Below, piece after piece: positions 59 through 8,195 of a stretch of 44,993 nt of DNA. The stretch comes from an uncultured Geobacteraceae bacterium. GTDB taxonomy: Bacteria; Desulfobacterota; Desulfuromonadia; Geobacterales; CAIOGM01. Positions within the stretch are counted from its first letter, which is position 1; each line of letters opens with the position of its first letter. The translations under genes were made by a program, and so were the position numbers. Under the pieces are notes generated by a model. The model made no database searches, was not told the DNA's origin, and worked only from the letters and a program-made list of their open reading frames with translations. The stretch covers positions 1 to 44,993 of the forward strand of contig CAIUUR010000125.1 in the NCBI GenBank assembly GCA_903902345.1, given 5' to 3'.

Positions 59-1855
59 ATGCCTCACAGAATGTCGGAAAAGGCCATCAAATCACCCAAC
101 TTCTTCTTCCTCGAATCCCATGATCACCTCCTGGTCACCCTGGCTGCCCAGGCTGAAACCTACCTCCTTTCCGATCCGAATACTTCACTCATAAAACTTC
201 GACAATTTGTAGAATTACTCGCCCAACAGACCAGCGCCTATTCCGGTGTTTACACAACACGAGAGGAGAAGCTGTCGGATCTGCTGGAAAGACTGAGGAG
301 TAAGGGAGTCCTGTCACCTGAGGTCGACCAGCTCTTTCATGGTATCCGCAAGGCCGGCAATGAGGCTGTCCATAAACATACCGGCACCCGGAGTGAAGCA
401 CTCCACCAAATCCGGATGGCCCGGACTCTGGCTGTCTGGTTTCACCGCTCTTTCAAAAAGCCGGATTTCAAGATTGGGCCTTTTGTCCCGCCCCCGGACC
501 CGACCGATGTCGAAAGTCCACTTCTCGCCGACCTGGAGCGATTACGCCGGGAGCTAACCGAGTACCGTCACCAGACTGTCGCCGAGCAGGCGGCATTTCA
601 GGAAGACGCTGAAGCCAAAATCAAGGCCGCTTACGATGATATGGCGGCGGCATTGGAGCTGGCCGGAGAAACAGAAGAGAAGCTAAGGGTCGAACAGGAG
701 CGTTTTCAGCAGCATATCCAGACGCTCCAGGCCACTGCTGCTGCGAAAAGTACTTCTGAAGCTGAGGCGACCGTCAAGCAGGTACAGAAGGCATCACAAC
801 ATCTGGACCTCAGTGAGGCCGACACCCGTTCGATCATCGACGTTCAGTTACGAGAAGCCGGGTGGGAAGCTGATAGCAAGGAACTGACCTATCAGAAGGG
901 TGCTCGCCCTCAGAAGGGAAGAAGACTCGCCATTGCCGAGTGGCCCACCGCCAATGGACCGGCGGACTATCTTCTTTTTGCCGGACTCCGTCCCGTGGGA
1001 ATTGTTGAGGCCAAACGCAAGACTAAGGATGTCCCCGGATCTATTGAGCAGGCTAAACGATACAGTCGGGGGTATGCTCTGCAGAACGACCAGCTTTCCC
1101 CCGGCGGACCCTGGGGCGAGTATAAGGTTCCTTTCCTCTATGCGACCAATGGCAGGCCCTATCTGGCGCAAATTCAGACAAAGAGCGGCATCTGGTTCCT
1201 GGATAGCCGGATCGCTACCAATCACCCCCGTTCCCTGAATGGTTGGCACTCACCCGAAGGTCTCCTGGCCTTGCTTGACATGAACGAGCAGGAAGCCGCC
1301 CGAAAGCTGAAGAAAGAACCCATCGATTACCTGAACCTCCGTGTGTATCACTATGATGCTATCAGGGCTGTAGAGGCAGGACTTGCCAAGGGGCTGCGTC
1401 GGATACTCCTTGCCATGGCCACCGGTACCGGCAAGACCCGAACCTGTATAGCTCTCTCCTATCGCCTCATCAAGGCCAAACGGTTCAGGCGGATATTGTT
1501 TCTCGTGGACCGGACCTCGCTGGGTGTGCAGGCAACTGATGCCTTTAAGGATGTCCGGCTGGAGGGGCTGCAAAAATTCCCTGATATCTACGATGTGAAG
1601 GAACTGGGGGACATCCAGCCCGAGGCGGGTACCCGTTTGCACATTGCCACCATTCAGGGGATGATGAAGAGGCTCCTTTACCCTTCCGATGAGACCAAGC
1701 CCTTGCCGGTAGATCAGATTGTTGATCGGGAATCATTTGAAAAAGGGCGGTTCAAGGACGAAGGTGGTTTTGCCCGGTTGAATAAGGTTTTCGAGGGGAA
1801 GTTGGAGCAGGTACTTGATGAAATCTCTGACGATCTCTGGCAAGATGCAGCATAA
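59..1855 (+). pseudogene. hsdR: Type I restriction enzyme R subunit, internally deleted (DUF4145-like N-terminus, HSDR_N, helicase Walker A, then directly the C-terminal tail)
   Basis: ORF has ATGTGKTRTCIALSYRLIKAKRFRRILFLVDR (motif I region), but jumps from LHIATIQGMMKRLLYPSDETKPLPVDQ to IVDRESFEKGRFKDEGGFARLNKVFEGKLEQVLDEISDDLWQDAA, which resembles the extreme C-terminus of HsdR. The DECH box and later motifs are absent and the length is 598 aa. Confidence 0.85.
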
Positions 1856-1880: not shown

Positions 1881-2111
1881 ATGCCTACCACTATGCAGCA
1901 GCTTGAGGCCGAAGCTTTAAAACTCGATCTTCATGCCCGTGCCCATCTCGCCGGTCGGTTGCTACTGAGCCTTGATGAACCATCGCCCTCGGAAATCGAA
2001 CGACTCTGGCTGGACGAGGCTGAACGCAGGCTGGAGGAATATCATTCAGGAAAAGTTGTCGGAATACCGGCAGATGAAGTATTCAAGCGTGCTTTGGCTG
2101 AGTTGTCATGA
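1881..2111 (+). CDS. Addiction-module antitoxin (TIGR02574-like putative addiction module component)
   Basis: MPTTMQQLEAEALKLDLHARAHLAGRLLLSLDEPSPSEIERLWLDEAERRLEEYHSGKVVGIPADEVFKRALAELS; stop overlaps the start of the toxin reading frame. Confidence 0.75.
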   Translation: MPTTMQQLEAEALKLDLHARAHLAGRLLLSLDEPSPSEIERLWLDEAERRLEEYHSGKVVGIPADEVFKRALAELS

Positions 2112-2408
2112 ATACTATCTTTTTACCGGATGCGGATGAAGAACTCCGGGAAGCAGCTCGCTACTACGAAAATGAGGCCAGCGGAGTAGGGGTTGCTTTT
2201 ATCGCAGAAGTAAAATCGAACTATCTCACTTATTCACGCCCAACCGAAGTCGACCAAAAAGATCCGTGGGAAAATTCGCCAGAAGGTAATGAATCACTTT
2301 GCCTATAATATCCTGTATTCCATTGAGACTGACCACATCCTGATTATTGCTGTTGCCCACCAGAAACGACGGCCAAACTATTGGCTGAAGCGCGTCGCGA
2401 CGAGATAA
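2108..2408 (+). pseudogene. ParE/RelE-family toxin, frameshifted
   Basis: N-terminal frame MNTIFLPDADEELREAARYYENEASGVGVAFIAEVKS; C-terminal part in another frame KIRGKIRQKVMNHFAYNILYSIETDHILIIAVAHQKRRPNYWLKRVATR*. Length 301 nt is not a multiple of 3. Confidence 0.75.
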
Positions 2409-2429: not shown

Positions 2430-3872
2430 ATGTCCACTACCTACGATATCGTTCAAAAACTCTGGAACCTCTGCAACGTCCTGCGAGACGACGGCATCAC
2501 CTATCATGAATACGTTACCGAGCTGACCTACCTCCTTTTCCTCAAGATGGCCCAGGAAACGGGTACAGAGAAGCAGATCCCCGCCGGATACCGCTGGCAT
2601 GATATCGAATCCAAGGAAGGGATAGAGCAACTGACCTTCTACCGGGGGCTGCTGATCTTTCTCGGCACCAAGACGGTCGGACGGGTGCAGGCGATCTTCG
2701 CCGATGCTTCCACATCTTTGCGTCAGCCGCGCAACCTGAAGAAGCTGGTGGATTACATCGACGAGTTGGATTGGTACAGCGCCCGTCAGGAAGGGCTGGG
2801 AGATCTCTACGAAGGACTGCTGGAGAAGAACGCCGGCGAGAAGAAGTCAGGGGCGGGCCAGTATTTTACCCCGCGTCCGCTCATCGAATGCATGGTGAAC
2901 CTGATCAAGCCGAAGCCCAGGGAGATGATACAGGACCCGGCGACCGGAACCGCCGGTTTCATTATCATGGCCGACCGCTACATCAAGGCGCGGACTGACG
3001 ATCTCTACGACCTGCCGGAAGAGGTGCAGGTGTTCCAGAAGAAACAGGCCTTCTACGGGATGGAGTTAGTCCCGGACACCCACCGACTGGCGCTCATGAA
3101 CGCCATGCTTCACGACATTGAGGGAGATATTCTGCTGGGCGATTCCCTTTCACCGGACGGGGCAGCTCTCCCCAAGGCCGACGTGATCCTGACTAATCCA
3201 CCCTTTGGCACCAAGCAGGGTGGGGGGATGCCGACCCGTGACGACTTCACCTATCCAACCAGCAATAAGCAGTTGGCCTTTCTCCAGCACATCTATAGGG
3301 GGCTGAAACCGGGAGGTCGAGCCGCCGTGGTGCTGCCGGACAATGTGCTCTTCGAGGGGAACACCGGCAAGCAAATTCGCGCTGACCTCATGGAGAAGTG
3401 CTACCTCCATACGATCCTGCGACTCCCTACCGGTATTTTTTATGCTCAAGGGGTCAAGACCAATGTTCTCTTCTTTCGGCGTGGGACAAAGGAGAAGGGG
3501 AATACCAAAGAGGTCTGGGTCTACGATCTCCGGACCAATATGCCGCAGTTCGGCAAACGGACGATGCTGACGCATGACAACTTTGTGGAGTTCGAGGCGG
3601 CTTATGGGGACGATCCACTTGGGAGTCCTGAGAGTCTGGCGAAGCGGGTGGATACCGGAGAGCAAGGGCGTTTCCGTAAATTCAGTCGGGAGTGGATTAC
3701 CGAACGGGGGGACAGCCTCGATATTTCCTGGCTCAAGGATGACAGTGCCACAGCAACTGAAGATCTGCCGGAACCTGCCTTGCTGGCCCAGGAGGCATTG
3801 GGAGAACTGGAAGCGGCCATGAACGAGTTGCATGGGATACTGGAAGAGCTGGGCGCGGAGGTGGAGGCGTAA
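2430..3872 (+). CDS. hsdM: Type I restriction-modification system M subunit (N-6 adenine DNA methyltransferase)
   Basis: HsdM_N region followed by GQYFTPRPLIECMVNLIKPKPREMIQDPATGTAGF and the catalytic NPPF motif (DVILTNPPFGTKQ). Confidence 0.95.
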   Translation: MSTTYDIVQKLWNLCNVLRDDGITYHEYVTELTYLLFLKMAQETGTEKQIPAGYRWHDIESKEGIEQLTFYRGLLIFLGTKTVGRVQAIFADASTSLRQPRNLKKLVDYIDELDWYSARQEGLGDLYEGLLEKNAGEKKSGAGQYFTPRPLIECMVNLIKPKPREMIQDPATGTAGFIIMADRYIKARTDDLYDLPEEVQVFQKKQAFYGMELVPDTHRLALMNAMLHDIEGDILLGDSLSPDGAALPKADVILTNPPFGTKQGGGMPTRDDFTYPTSNKQLAFLQHIYRGLKPGGRAAVVLPDNVLFEGNTGKQIRADLMEKCYLHTILRLPTGIFYAQGVKTNVLFFRRGTKEKGNTKEVWVYDLRTNMPQFGKRTMLTHDNFVEFEAAYGDDPLGSPESLAKRVDTGEQGRFRKFSREWITERGDSLDISWLKDDSATATEDLPEPALLAQEALGELEAAMNELHGILEELGAEVEA

Positions 3873-4014
3873 ACCTTACCACCCTTGGCCCCTCTTGAGA
3901 ACCTTACCACCCCCGGCCCCTTAAACCTTACCACCCCCGGCCCCTCCTAAAATAGGAGGGGAGCAAACCACTCCCCCTCCTTGGATAAGGAGGGGGTCGG
4001 GGGGTGGTTTGAAA
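3871..4014. repeat. Palindromic repeat copy A (AACCTTACCACCCCCGGCCCC leader units plus TCCTAAAATAGGA and CTCCTTGGMTAAGGAG hairpins)
   Basis: Three leader units then CCTCCTAAAATAGGAGGGGAGCAAACCACTCCCCCTCCTTGGATAAGGAGGGGGTCGGGGGGTGGTTT; begins at the hsdM stop codon. Confidence 0.9.
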
Positions 4015-4167
4015 AGCTGGCAATCGGCAGGTTAGGGGGTGGTTCGATAAAAGGTGGCCGAGGGATGTCGGTTTGGATGTACGCGGGTGTAAAGGGATGA
4101 GTGATTAACAGAACCTCCTGAAATGGTAATACTCATCACTACCAAGCACTACCTGGAGGCAACGTGT

Positions 4168-4452
4168 ATGCAGACGACGGTGAAACCCATGGCAATCAAG
4201 CTGCCTCAACAAGAGAGGGAACGTCTCCAAAAACTGGGCGAAGCGAGGAAACGCTCTCCGCACTGGTTGGCCAAGGAAGCGATTAGCCAATATCTCGATC
4301 GGGAAGAAGCCGCCGAACAGTTTCGACAAGAAACCGTAGCTCGTTGGGAAGAGTTCAGCCACACAGGGAAATCCGTTCCCCATGATGCAGTTATGAAGTG
4401 GCTTGAATCCTGGGGGACCGATAGTGAGCTTGAGCCGCCCCGATGCGAATAG
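4168..4452 (+). CDS. Ribbon-helix-helix (CopG/RelB-like) antitoxin
   Basis: MQTTVKPMAIKLPQQERERLQKLGEARKRSPHWLAKEAISQYLDREEAAEQF...; overlaps the RelE-like ORF by 10 nt. Confidence 0.75.
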   Translation: MQTTVKPMAIKLPQQERERLQKLGEARKRSPHWLAKEAISQYLDREEAAEQFRQETVARWEEFSHTGKSVPHDAVMKWLESWGTDSELEPPRCE

Positions 4453-4865
4453 AGTGGCTTGATTCCGCTATCCTTGACCTGCAACGGCTCAGGAATTTCA
4501 TTCTTCCTCACAATGTAGACGCTGCGCGACGTGCCGTCAGAACGAATCAGACAGCAGTTTCTCCTCTTATGTTGAATCCGCGCATTGGTAAACCGGTGGA
4601 AGACCTTCCGAATTACCACGACATTTTCATTCCGTTCGGCTCTTCCGGATATGTGCTTCGTTATCGGCTTCAAGGTGATACCGTTTATGTTATCGCCGTG
4701 AAGCACGGCAGGGAAGCCGGTTCTGCCGGTCAGATACCAACAGCAGAGTTGGTAAACGAGCCGATTGAAGCTGCTTATGGTACGCGCGAGAACCTTACCA
4801 CCCCCGGCCCCTTAAACCTTACCACCCCCGGCCCCTCAAACCTTACCACCCCCGGCCCCTCCTAA
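4443..4865 (+). CDS. RelE/ParE-family toxin with a C-terminal extension that runs into repeat copy B
   Basis: MRIEWLDSAILDLQRLRNFI...NPRIGKPVEDLPNYHDIFIPFGSSGYVLRYRLQGDTVYVIAVKHGREAG; then non-toxin tail ...RENLTTPGPLNLTTPGPSNLTTPGPS encoded by the repeat. Confidence 0.75.
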   Translation: MRIEWLDSAILDLQRLRNFILPHNVDAARRAVRTNQTAVSPLMLNPRIGKPVEDLPNYHDIFIPFGSSGYVLRYRLQGDTVYVIAVKHGREAGSAGQIPTAELVNEPIEAAYGTRENLTTPGPLNLTTPGPSNLTTPGPS

Positions 4866-4936
4866 AATAGGAGGGGAGCAAACCCGACCAAACACTCCCC
4901 CTCCTTGGACAAGGAGGGGGTCGGGGGGTGGTTTGA
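4791..4936. repeat. Palindromic repeat copy B
   Basis: Three AACCTTACCACCCCCGGCCCC units followed by the TCCTAAAATAGGA / TCCTTGGACAAGGA hairpins; loop is longer than in the other copies. Confidence 0.9.
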
Positions 4937-4969
4937 AAAGGGTGAAAGATGAATTCAATCAGGTGATCT

Positions 4970-5413
4970 ATGCTCAACAATAAGCCCATCCTGAAAACAC
5001 GCCGTCAAGAGTTGCGTAACAATGCCACGCCGGCGGAAAAGCTGCTCTGGAGTGTGCTTCAGCACAGCAATCTTGGTGGCTACAAGTTCCGCCGTCAGCA
5101 CAGTGTCGGGATGTATATCCTCGATTTTTACTGCCCGGCGGAAAAGTTCGCGGTGGAACTCGACGGTGATTCCCATTTCACCGACGAGGCAAGGGAGCAT
5201 GACCGGCAGAGGACGGAGTATTTGAATGGGTTTGGCATCCGCGTTATTCGGTTTCTGAATACGGATGTCTACGACAATCTGCAAGAGGTCTGTGAGAAGA
5301 TAGTGGAATGCCTTGTTGCACACGGTAGTACATCGGAAGATCTTACCACTTTCGGCCCCTTAAACCTTACCACCCCCGACCCCTTAAACCTTACCACCCC
5401 CGGCCCCTCCTAA
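4970..5413 (+). CDS. DUF559 domain-containing protein (Vsr/PD-(D/E)XK-like endonuclease fold)
   Basis: RRQELRNNATPAEKLLWSVLQHSNLGGYKFRRQHSVGMYILDFYCPAEKFAVELDGDSHF...RTEYLNGFGIRVIRFLNTDV is the typical DUF559 signature; C-terminus is repeat-derived. Confidence 0.9.
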   Translation: MLNNKPILKTRRQELRNNATPAEKLLWSVLQHSNLGGYKFRRQHSVGMYILDFYCPAEKFAVELDGDSHFTDEAREHDRQRTEYLNGFGIRVIRFLNTDVYDNLQEVCEKIVECLVAHGSTSEDLTTFGPLNLTTPDPLNLTTPGPS

Positions 5414-5474
5414 AATAGGAGGGGGGCAAACCACTCCCCCTCCTTGGCTAAGGAGGGGGTCGGGGGGTGGTTCG
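5340..5474. repeat. Palindromic repeat copy C
   Basis: ACTTTCGGCCCC, ACCCCCGACCCC and ACCCCCGGCCCC leader units then TCCTAAAATAGGA / CTCCTTGGCTAAGGAG hairpins. Confidence 0.9.
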
Positions 5475-5489
5475 ATAAAGGGTGCCGGC

Positions 5490-5693
5490 AGCTGGTTCGA
5501 TACAATTACCGAAGGGCGTAAACGGATGGAAGAGCTTGAATTGCTTCAGGACATTCATATGGCGGAACGCCAATTGACTGATGGCGAAGGGATCATCTAC
5601 AATGAGGCGCTTGAAAAGTTACTGGCGGGTCTTTCTGAGAACCTTACCACCCCCGACCCCTTAAACCTTACCACCCCCGGCCCCTCCTAAAAT
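5490..5693 (+). pseudogene. Antitoxin C-terminal fragment (Phd/YefM-like?) fused to repeat copy D
   Basis: Open frame SWFDTITEGRKRMEELELLQDIHMAERQLTDGEGIIYNEALEKLLAGLSENLTTPDPLNLTTPGPS*; no complete N-terminal domain present. Confidence 0.4.
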
Positions 5694-5755
5694 AGGAGGG
5701 GAGCAAACCACTCCCCCTCCTTGGCTAAGGAGGGGGTCGGGGGGTGGTTCGATAA
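5640..5755. repeat. Palindromic repeat copy D
   Basis: Two leader units plus hairpins, near-identical to copy C. Confidence 0.9.
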
Positions 5756-5849
5756 AGGATGTAAATAAAGCAGGTTCGACACAATTACCGGAGATAGTTT
5801 GATGCTTGATAACGAGTTGATACAAGAGTCAGGGCGCGGAGGTGGAGGC

Positions 5850-6866
5850 GTGAGTGAGCTTCCGGAAGGTTGGGATGGAGTATCGCTCGATGATGTCGCC
5901 CAATGGGGTTCTGGAGGAACTCCTTCTCGTTCAAATCCCGATTACTATAGTGGCCATATTCCTTGGATTAAAACAGGTGAGCTTGGTTCTGGTACAATAA
6001 ATAAAGCTGAGGAAATGATATCAGAGCTGGCCCTTAAAAACTCAAGTGCAAAGATTTATCCGAAAGGTTCTGTGGTAGTTGCAATGTACGGGGCAACAAT
6101 CGGCAAAACCAGTATATTAGGCATTGATGCTGCGACGAATCAAGCCTGCGGAGTCGGAATCCCTATAGATGGTGTCACCACTTCTAATTATCTTTATTAC
6201 TATTTACAATCTCAGAAAGACGCATTTATTGAGGCAGGTAAAGGTGGGGCGCAGCCGAATATATCACAAGGAGTAATCAAAAATTGGCCTCTTCCCCTCG
6301 CCCCCCTCAATGAACAAAAGCGCATCGCCGACAAACTGGATTCATTGCTGAAACGGGTGGATTCGTGCCGTGAACGGCTGGACCGGGTGCCGCTCATCCT
6401 CAAACGATTTCGCCAGTCAGTCCTGGCCGCCGCCACCTCGGGGGCGTTGACTGAGGATTGGAGGGAGAAAAACCGTGGTGAGGTAGGGGCGAACGGCGTT
6501 CGCCCTGGTGTTGTGAATGGCGATGATGCGGAAGAGGGCGCATGCCATGCGCCCCTACAGGGTCGGGAAGAGGTGGAAGGGTGGGCGGCTGTAAGACTTG
6601 CTAACGTCGCACATTCCCGATTGGGCAAGATGCTTGATAAGTCAAAGAACCAGGGAACACCAGTATCTTATCTGAGAAACGTAAACGTGCGATGGTTCGA
6701 TTTTGATCTGTCAGACATTTTAACGATCAAAGTGAGTGTGAAGGAGAAAGGTGGAGGCAAAGACAGAGATCACCGCCGGCAGCATCCCCCTCGCACTCCT
6801 CAAGGCCATGAAACCGGGACAGGAGTATTCTCGATCCGACCTGACCACCGCAACTGGAATAACTGA
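5850..6866 (+). pseudogene. hsdS: Type I restriction-modification specificity subunit, truncated in the second target recognition domain
   Basis: GTG start overlapping an ancestral hsdM-like TGA: VSELPEGWDGVSLDDVAQWGSGGTPSRSNPDYYSGHIPWIKTGEL...QPNISQGVIKNWPLPLAPLNEQKRIADKLDSLL (TRD1 plus central conserved region); second TRD stops making sense after RNVNVRWFDFDLSDI. Confidence 0.85.
6483..6558. repeat. Short palindromic element with GTAGGGGCG/CGCCCCTAC terminal inverted repeats, inside hsdS
   Basis: GTAGGGGCG at 6483-6491 and CGCCCCTAC at 6550-6558, with two internal 8-bp stem hairpins (GGGCGAAC-GGC-GTTCGCCC and GGGCGCAT-GCC-ATGCGCCC). Confidence 0.8.
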
Positions 6867-6963
6867 TGCTGACTGGACCTGGGCTATCCGCCAACTCCGA
6901 GAATCCGGTCAGGTCGTACAGGTAGGAGAACGGCGCGGGGCGAGATATCGCCGGAAGGAATGA
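6751..6963 (+). CDS. Small hypothetical protein, possible winged-helix, abutting the truncated hsdS
   Basis: MEAKTEITAGSIPLALLKAMKPGQEYSRSDLTTATGITDADWTWAIRQLRESGQVVQVGERRGARYRRKE; starts within the hsdS degenerate end. Confidence 0.45.
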   Translation: MEAKTEITAGSIPLALLKAMKPGQEYSRSDLTTATGITDADWTWAIRQLRESGQVVQVGERRGARYRRKE

Positions 6964-7044
6964 TGTTAAGAATCATAGTGAAAATTGTTGTTATCAATCT
7001 GGTGGAGTGATAAGATTCCAGGCTAAAAATAAGAGGGTAAGTGT

Positions 7045-7776
7045 ATGCTTAACAATTTGTGCACAGATATACTGCGGGCATTTTCTGTTGGTACGCAAGC
7101 GAATAATCACGAGCTTTTCGATAAAGCTCACGATCTCTCGGTATATTTCCATATGAATAGCGCTACACCAGCGTTGCTCGACACCGTTATCGAACTTGAA
7201 TATTCCGTCCTAAAAATGACAGGGCCTCATAAACAATTTCTTGAGGAGTGTATCTTTGGAGCGCTTAGAAGAAGTACTTGTTACTATGCGCCAGAGGATG
7301 AACCCTGGGAAAAACTAAACCAAGACTTTGCCGAGGTGGGGTTAACTTCAGAGCAAAAGCTGAGACGGAAACTTGCGTTACGGATAGTGACATTTTCAGA
7401 ACAGATATTCGCCCAGAATAGACCTAGGGATACCTTTGCCAATAAGCGCAAGTGTCTCGCCATGGGACTGCTCGACAGAATTGATCGTTACTATGATGTC
7501 CCACAGTGCGAGAAACTTTATGTGGCGGCCCTGGCGAGCGGCAAGAAGGCTCTTGTGCCGGCTGCAGTTGAGTTCTACGAGAACTACTTGCGCAGACGAA
7601 ATGCTGAGCTCACTCCGGAGGTGCTCGCTCTACTCGACAAACTGGTGCGAAAGACGAAGAACCGCTCAGTCGCCGTTGCAGCCTTAAACCTTCAGGTAAC
7701 CACAGGCGTCATCAGTGAACTAAGCGCCCTGTCTGATATCGATGAGTGGAAAGAGAAAAACGTTAATCGGTGGTGA
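7045..7776 (+). CDS. Hypothetical protein, predicted largely alpha-helical
   Basis: 243-aa ORF MLNNLCTDILRAFSVGTQANNHELFDKAHDLSVYFHMN...; no family recognised. Confidence 0.65.
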   Translation: MLNNLCTDILRAFSVGTQANNHELFDKAHDLSVYFHMNSATPALLDTVIELEYSVLKMTGPHKQFLEECIFGALRRSTCYYAPEDEPWEKLNQDFAEVGLTSEQKLRRKLALRIVTFSEQIFAQNRPRDTFANKRKCLAMGLLDRIDRYYDVPQCEKLYVAALASGKKALVPAAVEFYENYLRRRNAELTPEVLALLDKLVRKTKNRSVAVAALNLQVTTGVISELSALSDIDEWKEKNVNRW

Positions 7777-7810
7777 CCACCAATGCAGCTATGAACGAGT
7801 TGCACGGGAA

Positions 7811-7899
7811 AACCTTACCACCCCCGGCCCCTCCTAAAATAGGAGGGGAGAGAACACTCCCCCTCCTTGGCTAAGGAGGGGGCCGGGGGGTGGTTCGAC
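7811..7899. repeat. Palindromic repeat copy E
   Basis: AACCTTACCACCCCCGGCCCCTCCTAAAATAGGAGGGGAG...CTCCCCCTCCTTGGCTAAGGAGGGGGCCGGGGGGTGGTTCGA. Confidence 0.9.
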
Positions 7900-8195
7900 A
7901 AGAACCCGATCATGTTGATTTATATCGAAAACCGCGAAAACCGGGAACCGTGGTGCCACCCATTTAAAGGCCCCTGTCAAGCTACAAAAACAACCCGTCT
8001 ACACGATTTTGATCTTTTTCGCGGGGGGCGGTGTCCGGATTGACTTCCAGACATTCCTCCTTGAATCGGGGTAGTTGTTCCCGTTCCCTTGCTCAGGAGG
8101 CGCCTGGCAAAACAGTCGATGCGTGTCTTGAGGAGCAGTTGGGGTAGGCTTTCCACGAGGCCGGACTGCGGGGTATTCTGGGGACAGTATGCAGG

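Follow-up and report, generated by a model that had tools for sequence, protein, structure and literature searches.

We describe here a locus in a 44,993-nucleotide stretch of an uncultured Geobacteraceae bacterium (contig CAIUUR010000125.1; the whole stretch is called the window), in which the decaying type I restriction-modification (RM) operon hsdR-hsdM-hsdS has received an insertion between hsdM and hsdS. The insert is an array of small genes (a toxin-antitoxin pair, a DUF559 nuclease gene and the open reading frame ORF54), each framed by inverted L and R copies of a repeat predicted to form an intrastrand triplex. The best overall explanation, which we consider probable, is that this triplex-framed array was inserted and that DUF559 nucleases spread or maintain the repeats. 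The identity of the motif, its association with DUF559 genes, the orientation of its units, joint gain and loss with the gene and a correlation in copy number all point this way. BoxC/PIT triplex repeats have been known in E. coli since the 1990s and later in cyanobacteria and many others; to our knowledge neither a function nor a spreading agent has been established for them, and we know of almost no literature on DUF559. The family would thus be the first testable candidate for spreading or maintaining BoxC/PIT repeats, and because E. coli K-12 has a member of it, ycjD, the question can be addressed directly by experiment in a laboratory strain. DUF559 would also gain a likely natural substrate, predicted from association, and the link would account for such repeats framing genes inside defence loci.

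Each of the five repeats in the window (pairs A to E; Table 1) is a pair of inverted units, and in each unit (e.g. TCCCCCTCCTTGGCTAAGGAGGGGGTCGGGGGGTGG) a pyrimidine block and the purine block complementary to it enclose a loop. After a linker of two or three bases comes the third block, again of purines, which is a mirror of the second in which A is faced by T or A. Because this layout matches class II of the published triplex motifs (PMC4666352), the repeats are class-II intrastrand-triplex motifs (BoxC/PIT/TM), predicted from their sequence to form the triplex. A scan with the class-II three-block pattern, allowing no more than one mismatch, matched 10 of 10 window hairpins and nothing else in the 45 kb. 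In the window pairs the L loop is CC-G and the R loop either TC-G or CC-G, and across DUF559 loci the third block co-varies with the stem, as judged by eye and partly built into the scan. The motif is multicopy in the genome, with further L-R pairs or single units on contigs C90, C85, C246, C460 and C199 of the same assembly (G000), and it also occurs in G002 and G003. Like the E. coli motif (BoxC/PIT/TM-ECO), the window repeats are three-block class-II purine triplex motifs with blocks of 9-10 nt and short loops, mostly intergenic and often in inverted pairs of two loop types, which in E. coli join the second-loop types TTA and CCG (PMC4666352). They differ from TM-ECO in stem sequence, in forming direct arrays that frame genes, in running over the ends of ORFs and in their tie to DUF559. 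Holder et al. 2015 report no such tie and saw no mobility genes near their triplex motifs (PMC4666352). Palindromic intergenic families of the same bacterial group, several per intergenic region, have been reported as Geobacteraceae 'multicopy nucleotide sequences', which the available portions of those papers describe with neither a partner gene nor a triplex interpretation (PMC2700814, PMC2996986). The third-strand part of the L unit, a 24-bp head AAACCTTACCACCCCCGGCCCCTT, is present in two to three tandem copies in repeats A to D (3897-3946, 4788-4861, 5336-5409 and 5637-5686), the units from 4788 preceding pair B, and as a result three genes encode tails of the form NLTTPGPLNLTTPGPS.

The association between these motifs and DUF559 extends well beyond the window. 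We took 30 DUF559 loci, one per genome, from 97 genomes of the order, with the profile score as the sole basis of choice, and used as controls ParE toxins, Y1 transposases and distant windows of the DUF559 loci from the same order, together with HsdM from genomes of the class. A motif lies within 350 bp of 28 of the 30 DUF559 genes, on both sides in 20, whereas the same distance yields 0/24 for ParE (Fisher 2e-13), 0/22 for Y1_Tnp, 1/60 for distant windows and 1/26 for HsdM. The unit nearest to DUF559 is R upstream (24/26) and L downstream (20/22), so that the gene sits between inverted ends, and the median inverted-end alignment score is 33 at DUF559 genes versus 10 in far windows, 11 at ParE and 10 at HsdM. 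Terminal inverted repeats, a hallmark of insertion sequences (IS) and miniature inverted-repeat transposable elements (MITEs), are found at 25 of 29 DUF559 loci, which score at least 17, with control maxima of 15 (ParE) and 14 (far windows). Similarity between DUF559 proteins tracks similarity between their ends (rho 0.41, p 0.0005, genome relatedness not being separated). Throughout the order DUF559 genes adjoin motifs and mostly lie between inverted ones; other phyla vary more. In a plasmid collection, DUF559 genes of Cyanobacteria, Deinococcota and Sphingomonas have inverted ends on either side, and those of Azospirillum and Neisseria do so less distinctly. Within the genus of the window the layout of pair, DUF559 and pair recurs (L151, L152). 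The opposite orientation, L upstream and R downstream, occurs at three Deinococcus hpa clusters (L181, L184, L191) and in Synechocystis (L180).

The window DUF559 protein scores 110 bits against PF04480 (cut-off 20.6), retains all residues invariant in the family sample (Q43, D52, E63, D65, H69 and R81) and has a solved relative, PDB 3hrl. Caulobacter VsrA (PMC12907096), E. coli YcjD and PDB 3hrl belong to the same Vsr-like family. VsrA is regarded as a putative endonuclease of mismatch repair with a link to a cytosine methylase, and the accessible part of that report makes no mention of an association with dispersed repeats (PMC12907096). Our search of the open-access literature found no paper linking DUF559 or ycjD with BoxC, triplex or palindromic repeats. 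The repeats, the nuclease family and the palindromic multicopy sequences of Geobacteraceae are known, and a connection between the repeats and DUF559 was not found in the open literature. Elsewhere in the window's genome (L138, G000:C400, 5000-7300) a second array, HipBA - toxin-antitoxin - DUF559 - hsdR, once more has a DUF559 gene with a toxin-antitoxin pair on one side and a type I hsdR on the other, and the triplex repeats that separate its genes are of another family.

These data bear on two other accounts of the repeats. If they were repetitive extragenic palindromic (REP) elements moved by the REP-associated tyrosine transposase (RAYT, a Y1 transposase), DUF559 would be irrelevant. The head plus hairpin and the inverted pairs do resemble REP and bacterial interspersed mosaic elements (BIMEs), and the two systems share intergenic dispersal, the framing of a dedicated enzyme gene and solo copies (PMC2817692). 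However, the enzyme here is a PD-(D/E)XK nuclease and not a Y1 HUH transposase, and the palindromes have a third triplex strand; moreover, the defining neighbourhood of Y1 transposase and palindromes is seen at none of the 22 Y1_Tnp loci of the same genomes, so that this account is already disfavoured and we rate it as highly improbable. The main alternative is that DUF559 genes are passengers, with triplex motifs acting as break or rearrangement hot spots where small selfish nuclease genes accumulate or are kept for processing structures, while the repeats spread otherwise. Published triplex loci are indeed rearrangement-prone and stall polymerase in vitro (PMC4666352), and the toxin-antitoxin genes of the window are framed by repeats too. 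Against this, other mobile small genes of the same genomes (ParE, Y1_Tnp) are not near motifs, the inverted-end orientation is strict (24:2 and 20:2) and the ends track the DUF559 protein. The strictness of orientation and the lack of other mobile genes near the motifs speak against passengers, and we regard this alternative as unlikely, though less so than any other.

That DUF559 genes and repeats behave as one unit is seen when one orthologous intergenic site is followed through 19 genomes of a single genus: two genomes have R-DUF559-L there, two a single unit and one R-L without DUF559, and most are empty. Two of the empty genomes are the closest relatives of the occupied ones, with 98% identity in the flank; gene and repeats are gained and lost together here. 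Because the single-unit copies keep the last DUF559 codons, and this signature is confined to that site in those genomes, these sites are best read as in-place remnants after loss. A second orthologous site (L198 vs L199) was uninformative, as its downstream gene differs. In Deinococcus species, DUF559 genes that share 68-87% identity are placed differently within one hpa gene cluster. Hairpin-motif hits are also more numerous in those genomes of the order that have DUF559, with a median of 21 versus 5 in those without (p 9e-5; within-genus permutation p 0.002).

A similar relation holds in E. coli, whose DUF559 gene, ycjD, is present in ~3,366 of 5,426 genomes, the site being otherwise occupied by the eefRABCD operon (PMC12817139). 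Among 60 evenly spaced genomes, those with ycjD have 15-35 BoxC-like places and those without have 1-20 (medians 23 and 3; p 4e-8). An L-R BoxC pair lies on the 3' side of ycjD and is absent at the locus in two strains lacking ycjD, within the sequence scanned. Between sapF and fabI (L194-L197, L210) ycjD with its BoxC pair alternates with the eefRABCD efflux operon, which is a replacement and not a simple insertion.

We infer that DUF559 nucleases spread or maintain the triplex repeats. The Vsr-like nuclease would recognise triplex or hairpin ends and nick or cut there; repair or template switching would then copy the repeat into new intergenic sites, either alone or together with the nuclease gene or an adjacent toxin-antitoxin pair or other neighbour, and later recombination between direct L-R pairs would delete genes and leave solo pairs. 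Such a scheme would resemble the REP/RAYT partnership with an unrelated enzyme. A stronger version, which we put forward tentatively and hold at somewhat less than even confidence, is that DUF559 proteins may be the mobility enzymes of BoxC/PIT repeats, in a class of selfish elements (including ycjD and BoxC of K-12) with a Vsr-like PD-(D/E)XK nuclease and triplex-forming ends that could carry neighbours, for example toxin-antitoxin genes, into RM loci.

Several observations weigh against a role for DUF559 in spreading the repeats. No transposition event or excised form was observed, and dispersed solo copies with the DUF559 tail, searched for in the genomes with single-unit sites, were not found, only in-place remnants. 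A clean empty-site pair (G169 vs G170/G172) shows no obvious target duplication; of the duplications expected of IS and MITEs, 20 bp is found at hsdM/hsdS and none was seen at the RND site despite clean empty sites. Outside the order the association is patchier, and DUF559 genes of Photobacterium, E. coli, Shinella and Sinorhizobium lack inverted ends. The association could also mean that DUF559 is attracted to the repeats or repairs breaks there. The E. coli correlation is confounded by phylogroup, and O157 E. coli is an exception to it, with 19 BoxC-like places and no ycjD; with two further motif-rich genomes that lack DUF559 (98 and 145 hits), it requires past loss or another cause.

Returning to the window, 3871-5831 is identified by comparison as a 1,961-bp insert flanked by direct copies of 20 bp from the hsdM end, since in related operons hsdM directly overlaps hsdS. 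The preliminary description of this DNA had proposed that the hsdM 3' tail is present three times and bounds a cassette that can be excised or exchanged behind an intact methylase. Its exact 20-bp match (3851-3870 and 5832-5851) is borne out, with a local score of 46 against a maximum of 31 in 300 dinucleotide shuffles and a BLAST E of 1e-4. Also borne out is its suggestion that the second copy keeps the ancestral hsdM-hsdS junction: the overlap GAGGCGTGAGTGA (GCGTGAGTGA) occurs in the operon of G109, which is 83% identical, has close variants in L001, L003, G116 and G248, and is the ancestral arrangement. The third copy, said to differ mostly synonymously, matches the hsdM tail at 22 of 25 positions, and each of the three mismatches falls on the third base of a codon (score 35, 0/300 shuffles). 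As described, copies 1 and 3, which are spaced 3,972 bp, enter the same repeat (A and E; ...GGCGT then AAACC, and ...CACGGGA then AAACC). The homology of copy 2 holds over the 20 exact bases; a longer copy was rejected, as the part upstream (5810-5831) barely exceeds shuffles, its score of 18 being reached by 9/1000. This extension may belong to another fragment, because it comes just after 5769-5793, which repeats 5490-5514 in front of ORF54.

Table 1. Coordinates of genes, repeat pairs and hsdM-derived copies in the window
Feature	Position	Strand	Evidence
hsdR, internally deleted	59..1855	+	tblastn vs relatives; NCBIfam PRK11448
PF09720 addiction-module antitoxin, between hsdR and hsdM	1881..2111	+	Pfam E 2e-15
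Toxin remnant (broken) after PF09720 antitoxin	2108-2406		
hsdM, apparently complete	2430..3872	+	N6_Mtase E 3e-76; 83% identity to G109
hsdM tail copy 1, true hsdM 3' end	3811-3870	+	
Left copy of 20-bp direct duplication	3851..3870	+	
Repeat pair A, inverted triplex motifs (L 3930-3962, R 3972-4007)	3930..4007	.	triplex-motif scan
Toxin-antitoxin pair: RHH antitoxin 4168-4452, ParE toxin 4443-4865	4168..4865	+	Pfam; same pair in G003
Repeat pair B (L 4845-4877, R 4896-4931)	4845..4931	.	triplex-motif scan
DUF559 (Vsr-like PD-(D/E)XK) nuclease gene	4970..5413	+	PF04480 E 7e-32
Repeat pair C (L 5393-5425, R 5435-5470)	5393..5470	.	triplex-motif scan
ORF54, 54-aa ORF reading into repeat D	5526..5690	+	profile searches: no family match
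Repeat pair D (L 5670-5702, R 5712-5747)	5670..5747	.	triplex-motif scan
Right copy of 20-bp duplication, ending in original hsdM-hsdS overlap GCGTGAGTGAGC	5832..5851	+	
hsdS with a single complete recognition domain; its second half is cut off near 6735	5850..6866	+	Pfam, NCBIfam profiles
ORF70	6751-6963	+	profile searches: no significant family
ORF243	7045-7776	+	profile searches: no significant family
hsdM-tail copy 3, 25-nt fragment	7785..7809	+	
Repeat pair E (L 7817-7849, R 7858-7893)	7817..7893	.	triplex-motif scan

A specificity or addiction cassette behind hsdM, excised or exchanged by recombination between direct copies of hsdM tail plus repeat and acting as an epigenetic or addiction switch, would draw on the insertion, the duplication, the genuine copies 1 and 3 and direct repeats of ~93-120 bp that are 92-98% identical. 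It would also draw on one relative, an uncultured Desulfuromonadales metagenome-assembled genome of the same genus (G003:C343, L006), which keeps the final 54 codons of hsdM together with repeat A and the same toxin-antitoxin pair, and whose sequence diverges from that of the window within the L hairpin of repeat B. Because its right junction differs, the arrangement is not fixed. However, this genome has also lost most of hsdR and hsdM, and the pattern is one of decay and rearrangement, not of demonstrated switching. The relatives show neither a clean deletion junction joining 3840-4010 to 7810-7900 nor an alternative hsdS cassette, and Pfam and NCBIfam profile searches of the ten proteins of the segment found no recombinase, so that the features of a phase-variable type I RM system are missing. 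Pneumococcal tvr/SpnIV and cod, which are phase-variable loci, are likewise type I operons with rearranging specificity genes (PMC6265443, PMC12324116); the window locus differs from them in that its hsdR is broken and both a recombinase and an alternative hsdS are lacking. Nor is the methylase part of an intact system: hsdR lacks ~1.6 kb and hsdS its second half. We therefore judge switching by such a cassette to be improbable. The general phenomenon is the repeats with the nuclease and not the hsdM tails, because like repeats frame DUF559 genes unrelated to hsdM.

The RM operon is decaying. Tblastn against intact relatives places the missing ~1.6 kb of hsdR at residues 553/554, which fuse normal positions ~540 and ~1075 of the 1123-residue HsdR, and the main PRK11448 stretch spans only 3-540 of 1123. 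On hsdS, Methylase_S covers 5-178 only and the best PRK09737 stretch is 3-208 of 461. Of the complete hsdR, hsdM and hsdS of a functional type I system, both hsdR and hsdS are thus truncated, and the stop codon of hsdM is now supplied by the first bases of repeat A. Within the insert the toxin-antitoxin pair is framed by the R motif of pair A and the L motif of pair B, and in G003 it comes after the hsdM tail; the DUF559 reading frame enters repeat C. The interval between hsdR and hsdM (1815-2406) holds the PF09720 antitoxin and the broken toxin. At 6483-6558, in frame in the hsdS linker between the two domains, lies a palindromic repeat of another kind (GTAGGGGCGAACGGCGTTCGCCCTG / GGGCGCATGCCATGCGCCCCTAC), of which many genomes of the class have multiple copies.

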